From Variovorax sp. CAN15 (GTDB lineage: Bacteria; Pseudomonadota; Gammaproteobacteria; Burkholderiales; Burkholderiaceae_C), in assembly GCF_030462475.1 (NCBI RefSeq), contig NZ_JASMRZ010000003.1, forward strand, positions 128,894 to 192,893: a stretch of DNA of 64,000 bases, in the 5' to 3' direction. The notes beneath the pieces were generated by a model. The model had not been told where the DNA came from. It did no database searches and worked only from the letters and a program-made list of their open reading frames with translations. Within the stretch, counting starts at the first letter, position 1. Each line of letters begins with the position of its first letter. The position numbers were made by a program, and so were the translations under genes. Below are positions 20,352 to 34,594 of the stretch, in pieces.

Positions 20352-21143
20352 ATGAGCTTCAAACCCCGGATCCTGATCGCCGAAGACGAGTCGGGCATCG
20401 CCGACACGCTGCAATACGTCCTGAAAAGCGACGGATTCATCCCCGTCTGGTGCGCAACGGCCGAGGAAGCCATCGCCCAGTTCGCGCAGGAGCCGCCGGC
20501 GCTGGCCATCCTGGACATCGGGCTGCCCGATCTCAACGGTTTCGAGCTCTTCAAACGCCTGCAGGCGCTCAATCAGTCCATGGGCGGCCCGGAGGTGCCC
20601 ATGGTGTTCCTGACGGCCCGCAGCGACGAAATAGACCGCGTGGTGGGCCTCGAACTGGGCGCCGACGACTACATTGCCAAGCCCTTTTCTCCACGAGAGC
20701 TCGTCGCCCGGGTACGAACGATCCTGCGGCGCAGCGCCAGAAACGGCTCAGGAGCCCAGCCAGCGGCCGCTGGCGCGAATCACGTGGGGGGGCATCAAAT
20801 ATCCGCGAACGGCGCTCCTGCGGGCTATCAGCCCCCCGCATCGCCCTTCGCGCTGGACACCGAGCGCATGCAGATCCGTTACTACGGACGGCTGCTCGAG
20901 CTATCGCGCTACGAATACGGCTTGCTGAGATTGCTGGTGCAGCGCCCCGGCCGTGTCTTCACACGCGACGAACTGCTCGAACACGTCTGGGACGACTCCA
21001 GCGACAGCTTCGACCGCACCGTCGACGCGCACATCAAGACCTTGCGCGCCAAGCTCAAGGCGATCGCGCCGGACGTGGAGCCGATCCGCACGCTGCGCGG
21101 CACCGGCTACGCACTGAACGAAGAACTGCCATCAAAGGCATGA
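20352..21143 (+). CDS. creB: two-component response regulator CreB
   Basis: MSFKPRILIAEDESGIADTLQYVLKSDGF...LAILDIGLPDLNGFELFKRLQ; followed by creC. Confidence 0.9.
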   Translation: MSFKPRILIAEDESGIADTLQYVLKSDGFIPVWCATAEEAIAQFAQEPPALAILDIGLPDLNGFELFKRLQALNQSMGGPEVPMVFLTARSDEIDRVVGLELGADDYIAKPFSPRELVARVRTILRRSARNGSGAQPAAAGANHVGGHQISANGAPAGYQPPASPFALDTERMQIRYYGRLLELSRYEYGLLRLLVQRPGRVFTRDELLEHVWDDSSDSFDRTVDAHIKTLRAKLKAIAPDVEPIRTLRGTGYALNEELPSKA

Positions 21144-21267: not shown

Positions 21268-22713
21268 TTGACGAGGCGCACCCGGATCTTCATCGGCATC
21301 CTGCTGATCTACACGGCGGGCATCGCCTTCCTGCTCTACCGCGTCGTCTCCGACATCGATCCGCGCTACCGCGAATCCGCCGAGGAATCGCTGGTCGAGA
21401 CCTCGCAGCTCGTGGCCAGCCTGGTCGAGCAGGACGTGATCGCCGGCGCCATCAACACCGCGCGGCTCGAGCCGCTGTTCCGCACGGTCTACGCGCGCGA
21501 GTTCTCGGCGCAGATATACAACCTGCACAAGAGCCGCGTCGAGCTGCGCGTGTACGTCACCGACCGCAACGGCCGCGTGATGTTCGATTCGCTCGGCAGG
21601 CACCTCGGCGCCGACTATTCGAAGTGGAGCGACGTGAGCCGCACGCTTGCCGGCCTGTACGGCGCGCGCACCTCGCGCGACGTCGACGGCGATCCGCGCA
21701 CTTCGGTCATGTACGTGGGCGCCCCGATCCGCTGGAACAACGAGATCGTCGGCATGGTCAGTGTCGGCAAGCCTGTGCAGAGCTTCGGGCAGTTCGTGGA
21801 GGACGCGCGTGGGCGAACCATCTGGGTCGGCGTGGGCTCGGCGCTGGCGCTGCTGCTGCTCACCTTGATCGTCTCGGTCTGGCTGGTACGGCCCTTCGGC
21901 CTGATCCGCGACTACTGGACCTGGGTGCGCGCCCAGCGCAGCCTGAGCCTTTCACGCATGGCAAGGCGCGCGGTCGACGGCGTGCGCACCGGCTTCAGCG
22001 AAATGCGCGACGCGCTCACCGGGCGCAACTACGTGGCCGACTACGTCCAGACCTTCACGCATGAAGTGAAAAGCCCGCTCTCCGCCATCCGCGGCGCGGC
22101 CGAGCTGCTGCAGGAACCGTCGATGCCGCATCCCGAGCGCGAACGCTTCCTGAAGAACATCGAGCGCGAGACCCAGCGCATCCAGGAAATCGTCGACCGC
22201 ATGATGGAGCTCACCGCGCTCGAAACGCGGCGCGCGCTCGATCGCACCGAACCGGTGGCATTGGCCGCGCTGATCGACGACATCGCCACCAGCGCACAGA
22301 CAGCGGCAGCCAAGCGCAACATCAGGCTGCTGGTGAACATTCGCAACGAAGCACGCACCGAAGGCGACCCTTTCCTGCTGCGCCGCGCGATCAGCAACCT
22401 GCTCGACAACGCCATCGATTTTTCGCCGCGTGACAGCGAAGTTCTGCTCACGCTGGAAACGACCTCGAAGCTGGCCCGCGTGAGCGTGCGCGACCACGGC
22501 CCCGGCATTCCGGAGTACGCGCAGGAAAAAGTTTTTGAAAAGTTCTATTCACTCGCCAGGCCGCACAGCCAGAAGAAGAGCACCGGCCTGGGGCTGGCCT
22601 TCGTGAAGGAGATCGCGGCCCTGCACCACGGCCGCATCGACCTGGGTAACGCGTCGCGTGGCGGGGCGGTGGCGACGCTCACGTTGCCGCTGCTGTCTTC
22701 TTCACATCACTGA
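21268..22713 (+). CDS. creC: two-component sensor histidine kinase CreC
   Basis: RIFIGILLIYTAGIAFLLYRVVSDIDPRYRESAEESLVETSQLVAS...; FTHEVKSPLSAIRGAAELL; TTG start. Confidence 0.9.
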   Translation: MTRRTRIFIGILLIYTAGIAFLLYRVVSDIDPRYRESAEESLVETSQLVASLVEQDVIAGAINTARLEPLFRTVYAREFSAQIYNLHKSRVELRVYVTDRNGRVMFDSLGRHLGADYSKWSDVSRTLAGLYGARTSRDVDGDPRTSVMYVGAPIRWNNEIVGMVSVGKPVQSFGQFVEDARGRTIWVGVGSALALLLLTLIVSVWLVRPFGLIRDYWTWVRAQRSLSLSRMARRAVDGVRTGFSEMRDALTGRNYVADYVQTFTHEVKSPLSAIRGAAELLQEPSMPHPERERFLKNIERETQRIQEIVDRMMELTALETRRALDRTEPVALAALIDDIATSAQTAAAKRNIRLLVNIRNEARTEGDPFLLRRAISNLLDNAIDFSPRDSEVLLTLETTSKLARVSVRDHGPGIPEYAQEKVFEKFYSLARPHSQKKSTGLGLAFVKEIAALHHGRIDLGNASRGGAVATLTLPLLSSSHH

Positions 22714-24340: not shown

Positions 24341-26740
24341 CTACCGGAAGAAATCGAGGATCCGGTTGCGCTCCTCCGGCGGGGGCGGCGCACCCACGGG
24401 CGCGCCGGTGAGTTGCTCGACCGGCGGAGGCGGCGTGTCGCTGTTCTCCAGGCCCAGGCTCGCCACGTTGTGGCCCGGCGTGAAGTCGTCGAAGTACCAC
24501 TCGCCGTCGATGCTCACCACGCCCTCGGGCTGGGCCGGATGCGTCACCGGCACGCCCTGCAGCGCGGTCTGCATGTAGCCGGTCCAGATCGGCAGGCTCA
24601 GGCTGCCGCCGGTCTCGCCGCGTACGCCGAGCTGGCGCGGCGTGTCGTAGCCGACCCATGCGATGCCCACCATGGTCGGCTGGAAGCCGGCGAACCATGT
24701 GTCGAAGGAATCGTTGGTGGTGCCGGTCTTGCCGTAGAGGTCGTCGCGCTTGAGTGCCTGGTAGGCCTTGAAGCCGGTGCCGTTTCGCACCACGCTCTGC
24801 AGCAGCGAATCCATGATGAAGGCGTTGCGCTGCGGAATGGCGCGGCGCGTTTCGTCGAGCACGGGCGGCTCGGTTTCCATGATGACCTTGTCGCGCAGGT
24901 CGGTGACGCGGGTGACCAGGTAGGGATTGACGCGGTAGCCGCCGTTGGCGAATACCGAATAACCCACCGCCATCTGCATCGGCGTGACCGAGCCGGCGCC
25001 CAGGCCCATCGGCAGGTTCGCGGGCTGCTTGTCCTTGTCGAAGCCGAACTTCGTGACCCAGTCCTGCGCGTAGGGAGCGCCGATCGACTGCAGAACGCGC
25101 AGCGTTACCAGGTTCTTCGACTTCATCAGCGCGGTGCGCAGCGGCATCGGGCCCTCATAGGTTCCTTCGAAGTTCTTCGGCTCCCAAGGCTGGCCGCCAT
25201 TGGCGCTGGCGTCGAAGTAAAGCGGTGCGTCGTTCACCACGGTGGCGGGCGTGAAGCCTTTTTCAAGCGCGGCCGAATAGATGAAGGGCTTGAAGCTCGA
25301 ACCCGGCTGGCGCCAGGCCTGCGTGACGTGGTTGAACTTGTTCTTGCCGTAGTCGAAGCCGCCCACCAGCGCCTTGATGGCGCCGCTGCGCGGATCCATG
25401 CCGATGAAGGCGCCTTCGACCTCGGGCAGCTGCGTGATCTCCCAGGTGTTCTTCGGCGTCTTCGCCACGCGGATGACGGCGCCGCGGCGGATCTTGATGT
25501 TGGGTGGCGCCTTCGCGGCAAGGCCCGACTGCGCGGGCTTCAGGCCCTCGCCGGTGATCTGGATGGTCTCGCCGTTCGCGCGCACCGCGCTGATTTCCTT
25601 CGCGCTCGCGTCGAGCACCACGGCGGCGATCACGTCGCCGTTGTCGGGATGTTCGGCCAGCGCGTCGTCCACCGCTTCGTCGATCTCCTTCTGCTCGGCC
25701 GGCAGGTCGATGACCTTCTCGGGACCGCGGTAGGGCTGGCGGCGCTCGTAGTCCATGATGCCCTTGCGCAGCGATCTGTAGGCAGCCGCTTGGTCGGCCG
25801 CCACGATGGAGGTGTAGACCTTCATGCCGCTGGTGTAGATGCTGTCGCCGTATTGCGCGTACATCATCTGGCGCACCGTCTCGGCCACGTACTCCGCGTG
25901 CAGACGGTTCGGATCGGCGGCGTCACGCAGGTGCAGCTCTTCCTTCTTCGCGGCGGCCGCCTGCTCAGCGGTGATGAAGCCGGTTTCCTGCATGCGGTCG
26001 ATCACATAGAGCTGGCGTGCGCGTGCGCGGCGCGGGTTGGCCACCGGGTTGTTTGCACCAGGGGCCTTCGGCAGGCCCGCCAGCATCGCGGCCTCGGCGA
26101 TGGTGATGTTCTGCAGCGGCTTGCCGAAATAGGTTTCGGCCGCGGCGGCGAAACCGTAGGCGCGGTTTCCGAGGTAGATCTGGTTCAGGTAGATCTCGAG
26201 GATCTGGTCTTTCGTGAGCTGCTGCTCCAGCCGCATCGCCAGCAGGATCTCGTAGGTCTTGCGGCTCAGCGTCCGCTCTGAGCTCAGGTACACGTTGCGC
26301 GCCACCTGCATCGTGATGGTCGACGCGCCCTGCTGGCGACCGCCCTTCAGGCTGGCGACGGCTGCGCGCACGAAGCCCTTGTAGTCGACGCCGCCGTGGT
26401 CGTAGAAGCGCGCGTCCTCCACGGCCAGCACCGCATCCTTCATCACCTTCGGGATGTTGGCGAAGGGCGTGAGGTTGCGGCGCTCTTCACCGAATTCGCC
26501 GATCAGCTGGCCTTCGGTCGAATACACGCGAAGCGGCAGCTTGGGGCGGTAGTCGGAAAGCTCCGAGACATCGGGCAGCTTCGGATAGATGGTCACGACC
26601 GCGACGATGGCGGCGACCAGCACAACCAGCGCGCCGGAGCCGACACCGATGGCGCCCCAGCCGGCGACGCGCTTCCAGTTGAAGCGTGGTGGCGCCGCGC
26701 CGTCGTCGCCGGGGGCCTTGGAGTTTGAGCGTTTGAACAT
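24341..26740 (-). CDS. mrcA: penicillin-binding protein 1A (GT51 + transpeptidase)
   Basis: EDARFYDHGGVD, GASTITMQVARN, EIYLNQIYLG, PGSSFKPFIYSAAL, GKTGTTNDSFDTWF; start MFKRSNSKAPGDD. Confidence 0.95.
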   Translation of the reverse strand: MFKRSNSKAPGDDGAAPPRFNWKRVAGWGAIGVGSGALVVLVAAIVAVVTIYPKLPDVSELSDYRPKLPLRVYSTEGQLIGEFGEERRNLTPFANIPKVMKDAVLAVEDARFYDHGGVDYKGFVRAAVASLKGGRQQGASTITMQVARNVYLSSERTLSRKTYEILLAMRLEQQLTKDQILEIYLNQIYLGNRAYGFAAAAETYFGKPLQNITIAEAAMLAGLPKAPGANNPVANPRRARARQLYVIDRMQETGFITAEQAAAAKKEELHLRDAADPNRLHAEYVAETVRQMMYAQYGDSIYTSGMKVYTSIVAADQAAAYRSLRKGIMDYERRQPYRGPEKVIDLPAEQKEIDEAVDDALAEHPDNGDVIAAVVLDASAKEISAVRANGETIQITGEGLKPAQSGLAAKAPPNIKIRRGAVIRVAKTPKNTWEITQLPEVEGAFIGMDPRSGAIKALVGGFDYGKNKFNHVTQAWRQPGSSFKPFIYSAALEKGFTPATVVNDAPLYFDASANGGQPWEPKNFEGTYEGPMPLRTALMKSKNLVTLRVLQSIGAPYAQDWVTKFGFDKDKQPANLPMGLGAGSVTPMQMAVGYSVFANGGYRVNPYLVTRVTDLRDKVIMETEPPVLDETRRAIPQRNAFIMDSLLQSVVRNGTGFKAYQALKRDDLYGKTGTTNDSFDTWFAGFQPTMVGIAWVGYDTPRQLGVRGETGGSLSLPIWTGYMQTALQGVPVTHPAQPEGVVSIDGEWYFDDFTPGHNVASLGLENSDTPPPPVEQLTGAPVGAPPPPEERNRILDFFR

Positions 26741-26757: not shown

Positions 26758-28053
26758 CTAGCGAAAGGATTGGAGCCGCCGCGCGCTGCCGCGTTCCGGC
26801 GTCCGGAGTTCGAGCGTGCCTTGCAGCGCAGCGCGCTGCGCGCAATGCATCGCGTCGAAGTACTTGTCGTGGTCGAAGGCGATAAGCAGAAGATCCACTC
26901 CGGCGTCGAGCGCACGGACGGTGGCGTCGCAGAGACCGCGGTTGTAGGCCGCGCCCATCGTGAGATCGTCGGTGACGAGCAGGCCCTGGTAGCCCCATTC
27001 GCCTCGAATCACCCGCTGCACGATTTTGCGCGAGAAAGAGACCGGATAAGCGGCGTCAAGTTCCGCAAGGATGACATGGCCCAGCATGATCGCCGCATCC
27101 GAATGTTTCGATACGTCTTGAAACGGCTTCCAGTCGTGCTCCGCGAGCCGGGCGACGGGTGTGTGCAGTTCGGCGGCGAAATGGTGGGTGTCCCCGGTCA
27201 CGCCGGCCAGGCCGGGAAAGTGCTTGAGCGTGCCTCGTACGCCAGCGGATTCGAGGCCCAGCTCGTAAGCGAGCGCCACCTGCGCGGTGACCGCCGGGTC
27301 GGCCGATATGGCGCGTTCGTCGATGCGGGTGTGGAAGTCCCAGCGATCCGGCGCGCGCCCGGTGCGCAGGTCGACCACCGGGCTGAAGTTGAGCGTGATG
27401 CCGAGTGCGGCGAGCGCCCTGCCCTGCTGCGCGCCGTAGGCATGGGCGCGCTGGGTGAGTTCGTCGTCGGGCAGGTCGGCATCGTCGAGAAGCGAGGCGA
27501 GCACGGGCTGGCGTTCGACCAATGGGGACAGGCGGGAGACAGCGCCGCCTTCCTGGTCGGTCGCGACGATCAGCGGCGGCAGGCCGGCCGAACGGCGCAG
27601 CGCCTGCAGCCCTGAGATCTCGTCGCGCAGCTCTTCCGCCGTGCGACCCCTGACATTGCGGCCGGTGACGAAGATGCCGCCGATCAGCCCCTTGCGTGCC
27701 AGTTCGCGCAGCTCCTTCGCGTCGTCATAGCCGACGATGAAATGTGCGCCCACCGCCTGCGCGAGCGGGCCTTCCATCGCATTCACTTCGGCGCGGTGCT
27801 GGCGCGACATCGCTTCGTTGCACAGCGCCGTGAGCACGGCCGCGATTGCCAGTCCCAGCGCCACGGGCCGCAGCCTGCCTTGTGCAAAGCGCCAAGCGAT
27901 CGCGATGCTCGCAAGAAGCAAGGCCAGCAGCAGCGGCAGTTCCCACGCACGCATGAAGCGCAGGTGCGGGTCCTTCAGGTGCCAGGCCCAGAACCACAGC
28001 ACGGCCAGCGCCAGCCAGCCCGATGTACCGGCGATGACCCGCAGCAGCTTCAT
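26758..28053 (-). CDS. GH3 beta-N-acetylhexosaminidase-like (NagZ-like) protein with N-terminal TM segments
   Basis: VATDQEGGAVSRLSP, KHFPGLAGVTGDTHH, VTDDLTMGAAY; ATGA overlap with creD. Confidence 0.87.
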   Translation of the reverse strand: MKLLRVIAGTSGWLALAVLWFWAWHLKDPHLRFMRAWELPLLLALLLASIAIAWRFAQGRLRPVALGLAIAAVLTALCNEAMSRQHRAEVNAMEGPLAQAVGAHFIVGYDDAKELRELARKGLIGGIFVTGRNVRGRTAEELRDEISGLQALRRSAGLPPLIVATDQEGGAVSRLSPLVERQPVLASLLDDADLPDDELTQRAHAYGAQQGRALAALGITLNFSPVVDLRTGRAPDRWDFHTRIDERAISADPAVTAQVALAYELGLESAGVRGTLKHFPGLAGVTGDTHHFAAELHTPVARLAEHDWKPFQDVSKHSDAAIMLGHVILAELDAAYPVSFSRKIVQRVIRGEWGYQGLLVTDDLTMGAAYNRGLCDATVRALDAGVDLLLIAFDHDKYFDAMHCAQRAALQGTLELRTPERGSARRLQSFR

Positions 28054-29540
28054 GCGGCCGTCGGCGCTTCAAGTGCCGCTACGGGCGCGGCTTCGTTGCG
28101 GCGCGAGAGCGCGTACCAGTCGACCTTGCGCGTCACGAGCATCAATGTGGCCAGCATGCCGAAGATCAGCAGCGCACCCAGCAGCAGCGCATTGCTTTCC
28201 GACGCCAGCAGGCCGTAGAGCGCACCGTACAGCAGTGCGACGAATGCGCCGAACGACATGCCGCGGCGCCAGCCGCCCAGCACCGCGCTGAAGTACACGG
28301 CCAGCAGCGCGACGCTCGCCGAGGCGGCGCCCGCGTAGGCCATCCAGAAGGCGAACTTCTCGGACAGCGCCAGCAGCAGCAGGAAGAAGAGCGCGATCGA
28401 CAGGCCCACCAGCCCGTACTGGATCGGATGCAGGCGCAGCTTGCGGAACAGCTCGAACATGAAGGCGGCCATCAGCACCAGGCCGATGAAGAGCACGCCG
28501 TACTTGCCCGCGCGCGTGCTCATCGAATAGACGTTGATGGGCTGAGCGAGCGACACGTCGAAGGTCTGCAGCGGGCCCAGGTTCCGGCGCGCCGGAACTA
28601 CGGCGGCAGCTGTCGCTGCCACATCGGCGCTGCTGGCCACATCCACTGCGCCGCCCCGGCCCGAGAGGCCTGCGCGTACCTGCTCGCGCGACGAGGTCAC
28701 GAGCGAGGACACGCGCCAGTGCGCGTCGAAGCCCTGTGGCGTCACGCTGCGCTCGGCCGCGAGAAAGCGGCCGCCGAAGCTGGGGTGTGCCCAGGGCGAG
28801 CTCAGGTGTGCGGTCGTCTCTTCGGCGATGGGCGTGATGGCGAGCGTGTCCTGTCCAACCAGCCCCAGCTTCATCTCGAAAGGAATCGGTGTGCCGGCCT
28901 GCCAGGCGGCGAGCGCGGCGCCGGTGACCGGTGCATGGATGCCGTTGGCGAACCAGGCATCGTCGTCAAGGCCCGGCACGCGTTGCCTGAAGCGCAGGGT
29001 TTCGCCGCCCATGCTCATGGTGGGCGAGCCGTCGAGGCCGCGCAGGTCGCTCACGTTGAAGGCGATGAGCGGCGCCTTGAACTCGATCTTCGAATCGGTC
29101 TCGCTGTGCGGCACGGCCTTGGGGTCGAAGGCGGTGAAGCCGCCGGAGAGCACCGCATCGAGCGTGTAGAAGGGAATCTTGAAGATGCCGCGATAGCGTT
29201 CCTGTGGCGCCATCGTGCCCTCGATGTGCAGCTTGTCGGGGAACACCACGTGGGCCATTTCCTTGCTGCGCGGCTCCTGGCCGATCACCTTGCCCTGCGC
29301 GTTGCGCAGCGGCTCCATCCAGCGTTCCACGTAAGGCACCAGAAGCAGCGGGCCGACCATGGTCTGGCGGCCCGCGTAGGTGGAGGCGAGTTCGTCGGCA
29401 GCCTCGCGCTGGCTCTCGCCGCGGGCACGGTTGATCGAATCGATCTCCCCCAGCGGAATGCAAAGGAGCAGCAGCAGGAAAAGCAGGCCGGCGACCTTGG
29501 CCAGCATGGAACTCATCACGGCCCTGAGCAGCTGAAGCAT
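28050..29540 (-). CDS. creD: cell envelope integrity protein CreD
   Basis: LCIPLGEIDSINRARGESQREAADELASTYAGRQTMVGPLLLVPYVERW; C-terminal IQYGLVGLSIALFFLLLLALSEKFAFWMAY typical CreD. Confidence 0.94.
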   Translation of the reverse strand: MLQLLRAVMSSMLAKVAGLLFLLLLLCIPLGEIDSINRARGESQREAADELASTYAGRQTMVGPLLLVPYVERWMEPLRNAQGKVIGQEPRSKEMAHVVFPDKLHIEGTMAPQERYRGIFKIPFYTLDAVLSGGFTAFDPKAVPHSETDSKIEFKAPLIAFNVSDLRGLDGSPTMSMGGETLRFRQRVPGLDDDAWFANGIHAPVTGAALAAWQAGTPIPFEMKLGLVGQDTLAITPIAEETTAHLSSPWAHPSFGGRFLAAERSVTPQGFDAHWRVSSLVTSSREQVRAGLSGRGGAVDVASSADVAATAAAVVPARRNLGPLQTFDVSLAQPINVYSMSTRAGKYGVLFIGLVLMAAFMFELFRKLRLHPIQYGLVGLSIALFFLLLLALSEKFAFWMAYAGAASASVALLAVYFSAVLGGWRRGMSFGAFVALLYGALYGLLASESNALLLGALLIFGMLATLMLVTRKVDWYALSRRNEAAPVAALEAPTAA

Positions 29541-29589
29541 GTTTTTCTCTCCTCGTCTGTAGCGATGGCCGCGATGCTCGCCGCGCGAG

Positions 29590-29605
29590 CCGAAGGCCGT
29601 GTGAA
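29590..29605 (-). promoter_or_regulatory. degenerate cre-tag oriented toward creD
   Basis: Minus strand TTCAC-ACGGCC-TTCGG: first half perfect, second 3/5, 6-nt spacer. Confidence 0.35.
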
Positions 29606-29623
29606 GGGCACGGGCCGCCTCGC

Positions 29624-29639
29624 TTCACACAGACTTCAC
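29624..29639 (+). promoter_or_regulatory. perfect CreB-type tag TTCAC-N6-TTCAC in the creD / VIT-vWA divergent region
   Basis: TTCAC ACAGAC TTCAC read directly; matches the cre/blr-tag consensus described for CreB/BlrA regulons. Confidence 0.75.
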
Positions 29640-29745
29640 ACAGCGGATGCGGGCGGTCGACGACTTCAAGACGCCTTCCAACTGGCTTCTCGCGCGCTGG
29701 AGAAAGTTGCGGCCGTGCAAGTTCGCACGGACAAGGACCCCCGCC

Positions 29746-31806
29746 ATGGATGCCCAAACCACCCCACGTCCCGGCCGCTGGCTCTGGCTCGCCACCGTGA
29801 GCCTGGCGACCGCGGGCTTCATCGCCATGGGCGTGCGCCCGGTGCACGCGCAGGAAGCGCCAGCCGGCCCGCGCCAGAAGACCGAGAGCCCCTATTTCTT
29901 CGTGAAGAGCGACGATCCCTCGGTCGACCGCCTGCCGCTGAAGGGCACCGAGGTCTCGGTGAAGATCTCGGGCGTGATCGCCGACGTGACGGTCACGCAG
30001 ACCTACCGCAATGAAGGACAGCGCGCCATCGAGGCGAAGTACGTGTTCCCCGGCTCGGCCAAGGCCGCGGTGAGCGGCCTCAACGTGCGGCTGGCCGACC
30101 GGCTCATCACCGCGCAGATCCGCGAGAAGCAGCAGGCGCAGATCGAGTACGACACCGCCAAGAAGGAAGGCAAGACCGCCGCGCTGCTGGAGCAGCACCT
30201 GCCCAACGTGTTCCAGATGAACGTCGCCAACATCCTGCCGGGCGACGACGTGAAGGTGGAGCTGCGCTACACCGAGCTGCTGGTGCCGCAGTCGGGCAAC
30301 TACCAGTTCGTGTTTCCGACGGTGGTGGGGCCGCGCTACAACTCGCCGCAGTCGGAGAACGCACAGGCCAAGTGGGTCGCGCAGCCCACGCTGCCCGCGG
30401 GCACTGCCGCCGGCACCAGCTTCAGGCTCAAGGCCACCATCGACACGCCGATGGGCATCAAGGAGATCCGCTCCGCCACGCACGCCATCGACGTGAAGAA
30501 GAGCGACGAGGACCAGCACGCCGACGTCGTGCTCGCCGCCGATGGCCGTCCCGCCGACAACCGCGACTTCGTGCTCGACTACCGCCTCTCAGGCGAGAAG
30601 ATCGAATCGGGCCTGATGCTCTACAAGGGCCAGGGCAACAACGCCGAGAACTTCTTCCTCGCCATGGTCGAGCCGCCCAAGGCCGTGGCCGCCAGCGCGA
30701 TCTCGCCGCGCGACTACATCTTCGTGGTCGACATTTCGGGCTCGATGCATGGCTTTCCGCTCGACACCGCGAAGACGGTGCTCGAACGCCTGATCGGCGG
30801 CCTGCGCCCCAGCGACACCTTCAACGTGCTGCTCTTTTCGGGCAGCAACAAGATGCTCTCGCCCAAGTCGGTGCCGGCCACGCGCGCCAACATCGAGCAG
30901 GCGCTGTCCACCATCAAGAACTACAGCGGCAGCGGCAGCACCGAACTCATTCCGGCGCTCAAGCGCGTGTACGCCGAACCCAAGGAAAAGAACGTATCGC
31001 GCACCGTGGTGGTGGTGACCGACGGCTACGTGACGGTGGAGCGCGAGGCCTTCGAGCTGGTGCGCAACAACCTGTCGAAAGCCAACGTGTTCGCCTTCGG
31101 CATCGGCTCCTCGGTGAACCGCAGCCTGATGGAAGGCATCGCGCGTGCCGGCATGGGCGAGCCCTTCATCATCACCGACCCGATCCAGGCGCCCGAGCAG
31201 GCCGCGCGCTTTCGCCGCATGGTCGAGTCGCCGGTGCTCACGAACGTGAAGGCCACCTTCGGCGGTCTCGACGTGTACGACGTGGAGCCGCAGGCGCTGC
31301 CCGACGTGCTCGGCGAGCGCCCTGTGATCGTGTTCGGCAAGTGGCGCGGTGAAGCAAAAGGCCGCGTGATCATCGAAGGCCAGAGCGCCAGCGGCCCCTA
31401 TCGCCAGGAAGTGCGCATCGACGGCAACACCCGCCAGGACACGGCCTCGCTGCGCACGCTGTGGGCCCGCCACCGCATCCAGAGCCTGAGCGACCAGGAA
31501 ACGCTGGAAGGCGGCACGGCCCTGAAGGACCGCATCACCGAGCTCGGCTTGAAGTACAGCCTGCTCACCCGGTACACGAGCTTCATCGCCGTCGACAAGG
31601 TGGTGCGCAACATCGCGCCGCAGAACAGCGTGGACGTGAACCAGCCGCTGCCCCTGCCGCAAGGCGTGAGCGAGCTGGCGCTCGGCGCCGAGGTGCCGAG
31701 CACGCCCGAGCCCGAATCGCTGGGTGCCATCGCCGTAGTGCTGTCGATGCTAGCCATGCTGCGCCGCCGCGCGCGCCGCAACGACGCACGCCGCTTCACC
31801 GCCTGA
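29746..31806 (+). CDS. VIT + vWA domain surface protein with PEP-CTERM-like C-terminal sorting signal
   Basis: Signal peptide ending VRPVHAQ; VIT VTVTQTYRNEGQRAIEAKYVFPG; MIDAS DISGSMHG; C-terminus PSTPEPESLGAIAVVLSMLAMLRRRARRN. Confidence 0.92.
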   Translation: MDAQTTPRPGRWLWLATVSLATAGFIAMGVRPVHAQEAPAGPRQKTESPYFFVKSDDPSVDRLPLKGTEVSVKISGVIADVTVTQTYRNEGQRAIEAKYVFPGSAKAAVSGLNVRLADRLITAQIREKQQAQIEYDTAKKEGKTAALLEQHLPNVFQMNVANILPGDDVKVELRYTELLVPQSGNYQFVFPTVVGPRYNSPQSENAQAKWVAQPTLPAGTAAGTSFRLKATIDTPMGIKEIRSATHAIDVKKSDEDQHADVVLAADGRPADNRDFVLDYRLSGEKIESGLMLYKGQGNNAENFFLAMVEPPKAVAASAISPRDYIFVVDISGSMHGFPLDTAKTVLERLIGGLRPSDTFNVLLFSGSNKMLSPKSVPATRANIEQALSTIKNYSGSGSTELIPALKRVYAEPKEKNVSRTVVVVTDGYVTVEREAFELVRNNLSKANVFAFGIGSSVNRSLMEGIARAGMGEPFIITDPIQAPEQAARFRRMVESPVLTNVKATFGGLDVYDVEPQALPDVLGERPVIVFGKWRGEAKGRVIIEGQSASGPYRQEVRIDGNTRQDTASLRTLWARHRIQSLSDQETLEGGTALKDRITELGLKYSLLTRYTSFIAVDKVVRNIAPQNSVDVNQPLPLPQGVSELALGAEVPSTPEPESLGAIAVVLSMLAMLRRRARRNDARRFTA

Positions 31807-31831: not shown

Positions 31832-32761
31832 ATGTCCTTGGCAATGCTTGCCCACCGCCATCCGCGCATCGTGGACTGGGGCATCCACATCGACCGCACG
31901 CCGGCCGCCGGCTGGATCGGCCTGCAGTTCCTTGCGCTGATGCCCACCTGGGTGTGGATGGCCCAGCGCATGCGCGACGGCTCCGACGATCCGCTGGGAC
32001 TGCTGGCACTGGTCGCGCTCGCCGCGCTGGCCTGGAGCCGCAGGCGCGAACTGCGCGCTTCGCCCCGGCTGGGCTGGCTCGCGCTGGCCGGTGCAGGCAC
32101 CGTGCTCGCTACGCTGCTGCGCACGGGGCTCGGCTTCATGCCCGCGCTGCCGCCGCTCGCGGCCGGACTGATCGCTGTGCTGGCCCTGGCCTGCGGGCTG
32201 CTGGCTTTCCTGCCGCGCAAGGTGGCGGCGCTCCCGGTGGCCGGCCTCGCGGTGCTCGCGCTGCCGCTGCTTTCTTCGTTGCAGTTCTATGCTGGCTACC
32301 CGCTGCGCATGGTCACGGCCGAGGTCAGCCGCTGGCTGCTGTCGCCGGGCTTCGAGGTGGCGCGCGAAGGCGCGAGCCTGGCGGTCGATGGCCGGCTGGT
32401 GATCGTCGATGCGCCCTGCTCCGGCGTGCAGATGGTGTGGCTGGGCTACTTCACGGCCTGCGCGGTCGCGCTGTGGGCATCGCGCAGCGGCCGGGACTTC
32501 ATGGCGCGGCTGCCGATGGTCGGGCTTCTGGTGCTCGCCGGGAACATCGTGCGCAACAGCGTGCTGATCGCCTTCGAGGGGGCCGGCCATCCGCTCGCGC
32601 CGTGGGCGCACAACGCGCTGGGCCTCTTGGTGCTGGCCGTGGTGTGCGGCGCCATCGCCCGGCTGATGGTGCCGGCGCGTCCCGCGCCCGAACCCGCCGA
32701 ACTGCCCATTCCGGGCCTGATCACCACCCAGGGAGGCCGCCATGTCGACACCGTTCTTTGA
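31832..32761 (+). CDS. exosortase family protein
   Basis: Multi-TM; DAPCSGVQMVWLGYF (Cys), GNIVRNSVLIAFEG (Arg), PWAHNALGLLVL (His); adjacent to a PEP-CTERM-like target. Confidence 0.92.
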   Translation: MSLAMLAHRHPRIVDWGIHIDRTPAAGWIGLQFLALMPTWVWMAQRMRDGSDDPLGLLALVALAALAWSRRRELRASPRLGWLALAGAGTVLATLLRTGLGFMPALPPLAAGLIAVLALACGLLAFLPRKVAALPVAGLAVLALPLLSSLQFYAGYPLRMVTAEVSRWLLSPGFEVAREGASLAVDGRLVIVDAPCSGVQMVWLGYFTACAVALWASRSGRDFMARLPMVGLLVLAGNIVRNSVLIAFEGAGHPLAPWAHNALGLLVLAVVCGAIARLMVPARPAPEPAELPIPGLITTQGGRHVDTVL

Positions 32762-33314
32762 GCGCTGGTTCGCGAACCATTTCATCAACCGCATCGGCCA
32801 CAAGACCGCTTTCGCGTTCGCGATGCTGCTGTGCATGCTGTGGTCGGCCACGGCGGCGCTGCGCACGCCGGCGGAACCGATGGCGCCTGCCGTCGCTTCG
32901 CACGAATGGCCCAGCGAGTGGGACGGCGCCGCGCTGCGCCCGCTGGCCCTGAGCGACATCGAGCAGCGTTTTGCCGACCGCTTCCCCGGCGCGATCGGCC
33001 GCATGACCGACGGCACGCAGACGCTGGTGATGCGCGAGGTCAGCCAGCCCACGCGCATGCTGCATCCGGCCACCGACTGCTATCGCGCGCTGGGCTACCG
33101 CATCGAGCAGGCGCGCCTGGAACGCGACGCTCGCGAGCGCATGTGGCGCTGTTTTGTTGCGCAACGGCACGGAGCGCAAAAAATCCGCGTCTGCGAGCGC
33201 ATCGTCGACGCCCGGGGCACGGCTTTCACGGACACTTCGAGCTGGTACTGGGCAGCAGCCAGCGGCCAGTCGCATGGGCCGTGGCAAGCTGTCACCGTAG
33301 CGAGACCGATCTGA
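32742..33314 (+). CDS. exosortase-associated (EpsI-like) hypothetical protein with N-terminal TM
   Basis: Overlaps the exosortase 3' end; one N-terminal TM then soluble domain ...TRMLHPATDCYRALGY. Confidence 0.7.
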   Translation: MSTPFFERWFANHFINRIGHKTAFAFAMLLCMLWSATAALRTPAEPMAPAVASHEWPSEWDGAALRPLALSDIEQRFADRFPGAIGRMTDGTQTLVMREVSQPTRMLHPATDCYRALGYRIEQARLERDARERMWRCFVAQRHGAQKIRVCERIVDARGTAFTDTSSWYWAAASGQSHGPWQAVTVARPI

Positions 33315-33326
33315 GAAACCTGCCTG

Positions 33327-34594
33327 TGAAGAAGACCCTGCGATTCATGCTCTATGGCCTGATGGCCCTGGTCATTACGGCCTGTGTAGCTATCTTTTTG
33401 ATAGTCAAGCTGGCGCTCGCGCCGGCTGCCGGCGAATGGAGCACCTCGGTGAAGGCGGGGCCGCTGAATTTCGAGATCGGCGTGCCGACGGCGGTGCGCG
33501 TGGCCACCTCGACATGGTTCGCGCCGCACCTCGATGGCCGTTCCTTCGACACCCGCTTCGGCACCGTGCGCTTCGCCTGGAAGCCAGCCGGCGAACTGCT
33601 GGAAATGCAGTGCGCGCCCTGCAGCGCCGACGTGCCGGCGCTGGGCACTCAGCCGATCCGCGTCGATCGCCTGATCGCCACGGTGAAGCGCGACGGCAAC
33701 ACACTCGCCGGAACCTTCGAGGCCACGCCGCAGAGCAACGACGCGAGCCAGCTTCACGGCCATTGGGACGGCAGGCTTACGCCGAAGAACATCCACCTCG
33801 ATGCCAGCGTGCAGGACGCGCCCATCGCCCGCTGGTACGCGGTGCTGGTGCCCGCCCTGCCCGAGCTGCAGCGCGCGCGCATCGGCGGCACGCTGGCGCT
33901 GCGCGGCCAGCTCGTGCTGCCCGAGGCCACCTTCGCGGTGCAGCCGGCCATCAGCCAGTTCACCGTGGAAGGGCTGGGCACCGAGGCCATGCTGGGCGCG
34001 CGCACCAGCTGCGGCCCGTCGGCGAAGCTGGCGAACGACAGCTGGCTGGCGCGCGCCGTCATCGCGGCCGAAGACCAGCGCTTCTTCACCCACGGCGGCT
34101 ACGACCTCACGGAAATCCTCGCCTCCATCGACAACAACCAGAAGCCCGGCCAGACGCGGCGCGGCGGCAGCACGCTCACGCAGCAGCTCGCCAAGCTGCT
34201 GGTGACGGGCAGCGACCGCACGGCCGAGCGCAAGCTGCGCGAGCTGCTCTACGCGGTCGAGATGGAGCAGACGCTGGGCAAGGCCCGCATCCTGCAGCTG
34301 TACCTGGACAACGCCCCTTGGGGCGGCAATCTCTGCGGCGCCGAGGCCGCGGCGCGGCGCTACTTCAAGCGCAGCGCGCGCACGCTCGAACCGGCGCAGG
34401 CCGTGTGGCTCGCCGCCATGCTGCACAAGCCCCAGGCCGTGCTCGAACAATGGCGGCGCGACGGCCAGGTCGATCCCGATCGCATCAAGTGGATCGCCGA
34501 AGGCATCCGCGGAATCAGCCGCAACCAGCGCGAGGCCCTGCTCAAGAGCGTGGCCGCGGCGAAGTTCAGGGCGCCGGAGGCTGCCACGCAATGA
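33327..34594 (+). CDS. GT51 monofunctional transglycosylase-like protein with distinct N-terminal domain
   Basis: EDQRFFTHGGYDLTEI, RRGGSTLTQQLAKLLVTGSDRTAERKLRELLYAVEMEQTLGKARILQLYLDNAPWG. Confidence 0.88.
33389..33405. repeat. GCTAT-N7-ATAGC mini-hairpin, copy B (one arm mismatch, inside GT51 CDS)
   Basis: GCTATCTTTTTGATAGT. Confidence 0.65.

Follow-up and report, generated by a model that had tools for sequence, protein, structure and literature searches.

A predicted CreB-controlled divergent promoter between creD and a VIT-exosortase operon in Variovorax

The creD-VIT Locus

The DNA analyzed here is a stretch of 64 kb from Variovorax sp. CAN15 (referred to as the window), in which creD and the gene of a VIT/VWA surface protein are transcribed away from each other. 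The features of the locus, including the genes for CreB and CreC and the predicted promoter elements, are summarized in Table 1. To the right, the VIT gene is followed by the gene for exosortase Q (XrtQ), by a gene whose product is similar to the C-terminal portion of exosortase T and by the gene for a transglycosylase-domain protein. This transglycosylase gene is the final conserved one observed in the operon, and its true start lies slightly upstream of the position given. The VIT protein scores 425.6 bits against TIGR03788, which has a cut-off of 551.65, and is classed as a homologue of this family, not a member. The P-E-P columns of its sorting signal are invariant in 10 aligned proteins and are followed by a hydrophobic stretch and arginines; the PEP-CTERM family PF07589 gave no matches in the source genome and likewise none in the controls. 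In the nearest named loci, from V. guangxiensis DSM 27352 and other Variovorax, the VIT protein is 97% identical. VIT operons of the family type were also seen in metagenome bins named Azonexus and Desulfobulbus (L243 and L246), which probably reflects mis-binned contigs. To the left, creD overlaps by 4 bp with a NagZ-like glycoside hydrolase family 3 (GH3) gene, and the two probably form one operon. The gene of a PBP1A-family penicillin-binding protein lies beyond them, and where creD is lost it becomes the direct divergent neighbor of VIT.

Table 1. Genes and promoter features of the locus (positions within the window).
Feature	Position	Strand	Remarks
creB, OmpR/PhoB-type response regulator	20352-21143	+	NCBIfam NF008296 CreB equivalog, 305 bits (cut-off 273)
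creC, sensor histidine kinase	21268-22713	+	NCBIfam NF008312 CreC equivalog, 591 bits (cut-off 356)
PBP1A-family penicillin-binding protein gene	24341-26740	-	TIGR02074 above cut-off; downstream of creD, same strand
GH3 (NagZ-like) gene	26758-28053	-	Pfam GH3; NF003740 below cut-off
creD	28050-29540	-	PF06123, 418 bits; NF008712 equivalog
Predicted -10 of creD, GAGCAT	29574-29579	-	Exactly 15 bp past TTCGG
Degenerate CreB box TTCACACGGCCTTCGG	29590-29605	-	2 mismatches; faces creD
Perfect cre-tag (box 1) TTCAC-ACAGAC-TTCAC, TTCACACAGACTTCAC	29624-29639	+	0 mismatches; faces VIT
Box 2, three degenerate CTTC half-sites	29664-29691	+	11-bp period; TTC at 29665, 29676 and 29687
Predicted -10 of VIT operon, GAAAGT	29702-29707	+	15 bp past last TTC
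Hairpin CCGTGC-AAGTTC-GCACGG	29713-29730	+	Near predicted 5' end of VIT mRNA
VIT/VWA surface protein gene, C-terminal PEP sorting signal	29746-31806	+	PF08487, VWA; TIGR03788 homologue below cut-off
Exosortase Q gene (xrtQ)	31832-32761	+	NF012182, 398 bits (cut-off 270)
Gene resembling exosortase T C-terminal part	32742-33314	+	NF033770 profile positions 287-446
Transglycosylase-domain protein gene	33386-34594	+	TIGR02070/TIGR02074 matches below cut-off

Occurrence and Conservation of the Perfect cre-Tag

The original prediction, made from the sequence of this stretch, had placed an exact TTCAC-N6-TTCAC tag in front of the VIT gene, and the tag is indeed found there without mismatch, as the sole exact match within the 64-kb window. 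Matches with up to two mismatches are as common in shuffled sequences (mean 27.0) as in the window (24), therefore the degenerate copy is unremarkable by itself. Across Burkholderiaceae_C genomes, exact tags occur at a density of ~0.9 per Mb, alike with or without creC, so the motif itself is unspecific. Since this density corresponds to ~0.06 exact tags per 64 kb and ~2e-4 per 206-bp intergenic region, the mere presence of the perfect tag is modest evidence, and its origin by chance is only moderately unlikely before conservation is weighed. Genome-wide tag counts were considered as evidence for a regulon and rejected, because genomes with creC have about the same density as those lacking it and the reversed-pattern control was low in all groups. 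The Variovorax source genome holds 14 exact tags (~2.0 per Mb, about double the density in the family). Several of the other 13 are located inside open frames, and one (L183:2074-2089) lies 8 bp upstream of an open frame whose product resembles PilB, the ATPase of type IV pilus assembly.

That the tag is real beyond chance follows from its conservation across loci and genera. A search by VIT homology yielded 80 named loci, in which the tag was sought within 400 bp upstream of VIT; the set covers Variovorax, Xenophilus, Polaromonas, Rhodoferax, Ramlibacter, Curvibacter, Pseudorhodoferax, Caldimonas, Rhizobacter, Ottowia, Saezia and others. The exact tag was present on the VIT strand in 79 of them and with one mismatch in the remaining locus, while the opposite strand carried an exact tag in none of the 80. 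VIT-XrtQ loci of 22 other genera, drawn from a separate genome sample that shares some strains with the first set, contained the tag in exact form (27/30) or with one mismatch (3/30). The half-site columns carry 1.65-2.0 bits, compared with ~0.02-0.55 bits for most upstream flank columns and 0.25-1.2 bits for most spacer columns. Both the perfect and the degenerate site are retained in all 30 creD-linked Variovorax loci, although conservation within the genus partly reflects shared descent. The original prediction had proposed to look for TTCAC repeats in orthologous regions as a check on itself; the repeats proved conserved, with the perfect tag before the VIT-exosortase operon in 22 other genera.

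Promoter Anatomy and the Sign of Control

Besides the perfect tag, which the original prediction described correctly, the VIT promoter contains two elements that had been overlooked, i.e., an additional row of weaker half-sites (box 2) and a -10-like hexamer. Box 2 is conserved within the genus, and 26 of the 30 promoters from other genera have a pair of CTTC half-sites downstream of the tag. A hexamer of the pattern NANNNT stands exactly 15 bp past the last TTC in 47 of 49 promoters of the genus and in 24 of the 26 cross-genus promoters with such a pair, compared with a median of 0 for this pattern at other offsets tested; this spacing rule was both spotted and counted on the same promoter set. 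The hexamers are read as putative -10 elements, with the last half-site occupying the -35 position. Promoters of the sigma-54 and sigma-E types were also considered for VIT and were dropped after inspection by eye, as neither fitted. Downstream of the predicted -10, the stem of a hairpin persists with altered sequence in other genera (e.g., GCCGCAC/GTGCGGC and CGTGCCGC/GCGGCACG), and the mean stem length is 5.0 bp vs 3.54 ± 0.18 bp in shuffles. The hairpin probably forms at the extreme 5' end of the VIT mRNA, which it may protect.

On the creD side, the minus-strand site was predicted as a degenerate tag facing creD. Its position, strand and direction are borne out, but instead of a decayed copy it is a conserved site that follows a separate consensus, TTCAYAC-N4-TTCGG. 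This form is kept in 29 of 30 creD-linked loci (TTCTG replaces TTCGG in the remaining one), so that the site is retained before creD throughout the genus, together with the -10-like GAGCAT at 15 bp past TTCGG, which is invariant in all 30. Most creD-less loci show GAGCAT or a close form (GAGTAT, CAGCAT, GAACAT) at the same distance.

It is from the position of the half-sites and the precedent in E. coli and Pseudomonas that we infer activation. In both E. coli and P. aeruginosa, creD is activated (PMC4689548; PMC2654508), and in the latter, CreBC becomes active and creD expression goes up when PBP4 is lost or inhibited (PMC2654508). The sign of control could differ, because creD of Stenotrophomonas is negatively affected by creBC, which lowers its expression (PMC4689548). 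CreB might accordingly bind here and yet repress one or both sides. Such repression is unlikely, given that the half-sites stop upstream of the -10, where an activator replaces the -35, and given the activation of creD in the two other species.

CreBC as the Candidate Reader of the Site

CreB of the window is 46% identical to E. coli CreB, and its recognition helix (DRTVDxHIKTLRAKL) is kept nearly identical. VIT is present in 39 of 250 sampled Burkholderiaceae_C genomes. creC accompanies it in 38 of these 39, compared with 62 of the 211 genomes without VIT (Fisher tests without phylogeny correction), and the lone VIT genome lacking creC is a 76% complete assembly. In eight VIT genomes from six genera, creC and VIT lie on different contigs or are separated by more than 40 kb, and the tag persists nonetheless. 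Among 20 creBC genomes without VIT, all 13 creD genes directly following creC have a tag with at most one mismatch that faces creD. Two nearly complete genomes of the genus (G003 and G064) lack creC, creD and XrtQ jointly.

creD itself was found in 60 of the 62 creC genomes without VIT vs 16 of the 38 with VIT, again without phylogeny correction. Thus two creC genomes were scored as having neither creD nor VIT. In one of them (G632) the exosortase gene is split over contig ends. The other (G613), which also lacks XrtQ, carries at L202:1461-3091 a Cre-type promoter of the VIT layout directly before a transglycosylase gene, the product of which is 44% identical to that of the last operon gene of the window.

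Direct repeats recurring every 11 bp are a generic feature of the OmpR/PhoB family, and another OmpR-family regulator could for this reason read the TTCAC repeats in Burkholderiaceae_C in place of CreB. The co-occurrence of VIT with creC even where the two are far apart, the presence of this repeat before creD in creBC genomes within the family and the conserved recognition helix of CreB all speak against it, and we regard this explanation as improbable, clearly more so than repression by CreB.

The Target of the Perfect Tag

In many genera, creC rather than creD lies directly upstream, in the order creB-creC-tag-VIT-xrtQ. As the E. coli cre-tag sits where creC ends, before creD, the VIT operon occupies the usual place of creD. 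Within the genus, 18 of 19 loci without intact creD have the exact tag, and the remaining one (L081) has one mismatch; the minus-strand site is also kept in most creD-less loci, where it faces the PBP1A gene. By contrast with these loci, two VIT paralogues without a neighboring exosortase (L173 and L174, from two genera) both lack the tag. Its retention without creD, its retention with creC upstream and its absence at exosortase-less paralogues suggest that the perfect tag serves the VIT operon. To take its orientation as the direction of control is sound, since in E. coli the creD, cbrA and cbrB tags each occupy the coding strand of the gene they precede. The assignment of the tag to the exosortase operon in the original prediction is thus upheld by 80 loci with the tag on the VIT strand and by its persistence without creD.

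creD, the classical target of Cre control, is an adjacent gene both in the window and in 30 loci of the genus. CreB could alternatively target creD alone, and the perfect tag would then act on it from a distance and merely be located on the VIT side. This is very improbable, for the place and orientation of the tag are unchanged in creD-less loci and where creC lies upstream, and creD has a box and a -10 of its own. As for a functionless repeat due to chance, exact tags do occur at ~0.9 per Mb regardless of creC, but conservation has already refuted this explanation, with 79 of 80 named loci exact and all oriented alike, and its probability is negligible.

Proposed Mechanism

Taken together, conservation, the spacing rule and co-occurrence support the reading, already put forward in the original prediction, that the intergenic region between creD and VIT forms a divergent promoter under CreB control, serving the VIT operon on the right and creD on the left; on sequence grounds, we assign it a probability of roughly 85%. 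CreC would sense disturbed wall synthesis, the presumed signal being, by analogy with Pseudomonas, the inhibition of a penicillin-binding protein. Phosphorylated CreB, as the putative binder, would then occupy box 1 and the weaker box 2, about three helical turns downstream, and box 2 would substitute for a -35 element. RNA polymerase would start from the -10 GAAAGT and transcribe VIT, xrtQ, the XrtT-C-like gene and the transglycosylase gene, which are the presumed limits of the operon. In the leftward direction, the CreB box TTCAC-N6-TTCGG directly before GAGCAT would activate creD and subsequently the NagZ-like and PBP1A genes. Through CreC, a signal could in this way jointly increase an exosortase-anchored surface protein, a membrane protein and enzymes of the cell wall.

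The conservation of the tag before the VIT-exosortase operon also supports the predicted extension of the Cre regulon to exosortase-dependent sorting, and it is very probable, as judged from sequence, that a cell-wall alarm controls the sorting of a surface protein. On balance, we favor, with less confidence than the divergent promoter itself, a broader view in which the VIT-exosortase-transglycosylase operon is a principal output of CreBC in Burkholderiaceae_C and has taken the place of creD behind creC, cell-wall stress directly drives exosortase-dependent surface display, and box 1, box 2 and the -10 form a general grammar. With a conserved second CreB target, exosortase Q would acquire a regulator and, in cell-wall stress, a likely context, and CreBC would gain an output traceable on the cell surface. 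In addition, the spacing rule could help to locate Cre promoters in other genomes.

Comparison with Known Systems

Some PEP-CTERM/exosortase systems are known to be under RpoN-dependent control by PrsK/PrsR. These systems likewise place a dedicated regulator over genes for exosortase-dependent sorting, whereas in Variovorax the predicted regulator belongs to the OmpR family and has a direct-repeat site, only one target gene lies adjacent, and the enzyme is exosortase Q. An RpoN-dependent PEP-CTERM gene has been described (PMC9850573). The proteobacterial dedicated sortase system (TIGR03788 target; TIGR03785/TIGR03787) combines a homologous VIT/VWA target with one sorting enzyme and, judging by the family names TIGR03785/TIGR03787, is also paired with a two-component system; Variovorax, however, uses a PEP signal and an exosortase, not a sortase. 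The TIGR03788 sortase targets were considered as additional Cre targets and rejected, as none of 30 sampled TIGR03788 loci of Gammaproteobacteria had an exact cre-tag.

The literature searched, with most subscription journals outside its scope, contained no link of CreBC to exosortases, XrtQ or Variovorax, and no description of this target set and bipartite layout. With the regulator and the tag known, and the targets and layout not found described, the locus is considered a Cre-type promoter with new, conserved targets. The E. coli Cre regulon (creD, cbrA, cbrB) and Aeromonas BlrAB have the same TTCAC-N6-TTCAC tag upstream of their genes, likewise on the coding strand, and the cbrA and cbrB tags, each on the strand of its own gene, are the only exact ones in a 49-kb stretch of E. 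coli. A -10-like hexamer is readable 15 bp past the second half-site of cbrA (TAGTCT) and cbrB (TAAATT), as in Variovorax, whereas E. coli creD has no suitable hexamer at this distance and fits the rule only from a later, weaker half-site. Unlike Cre control in E. coli and Aeromonas, that predicted for Variovorax covers a VIT/VWA surface protein together with an exosortase and a transglycosylase, and the VIT promoter possesses a second row of half-sites.
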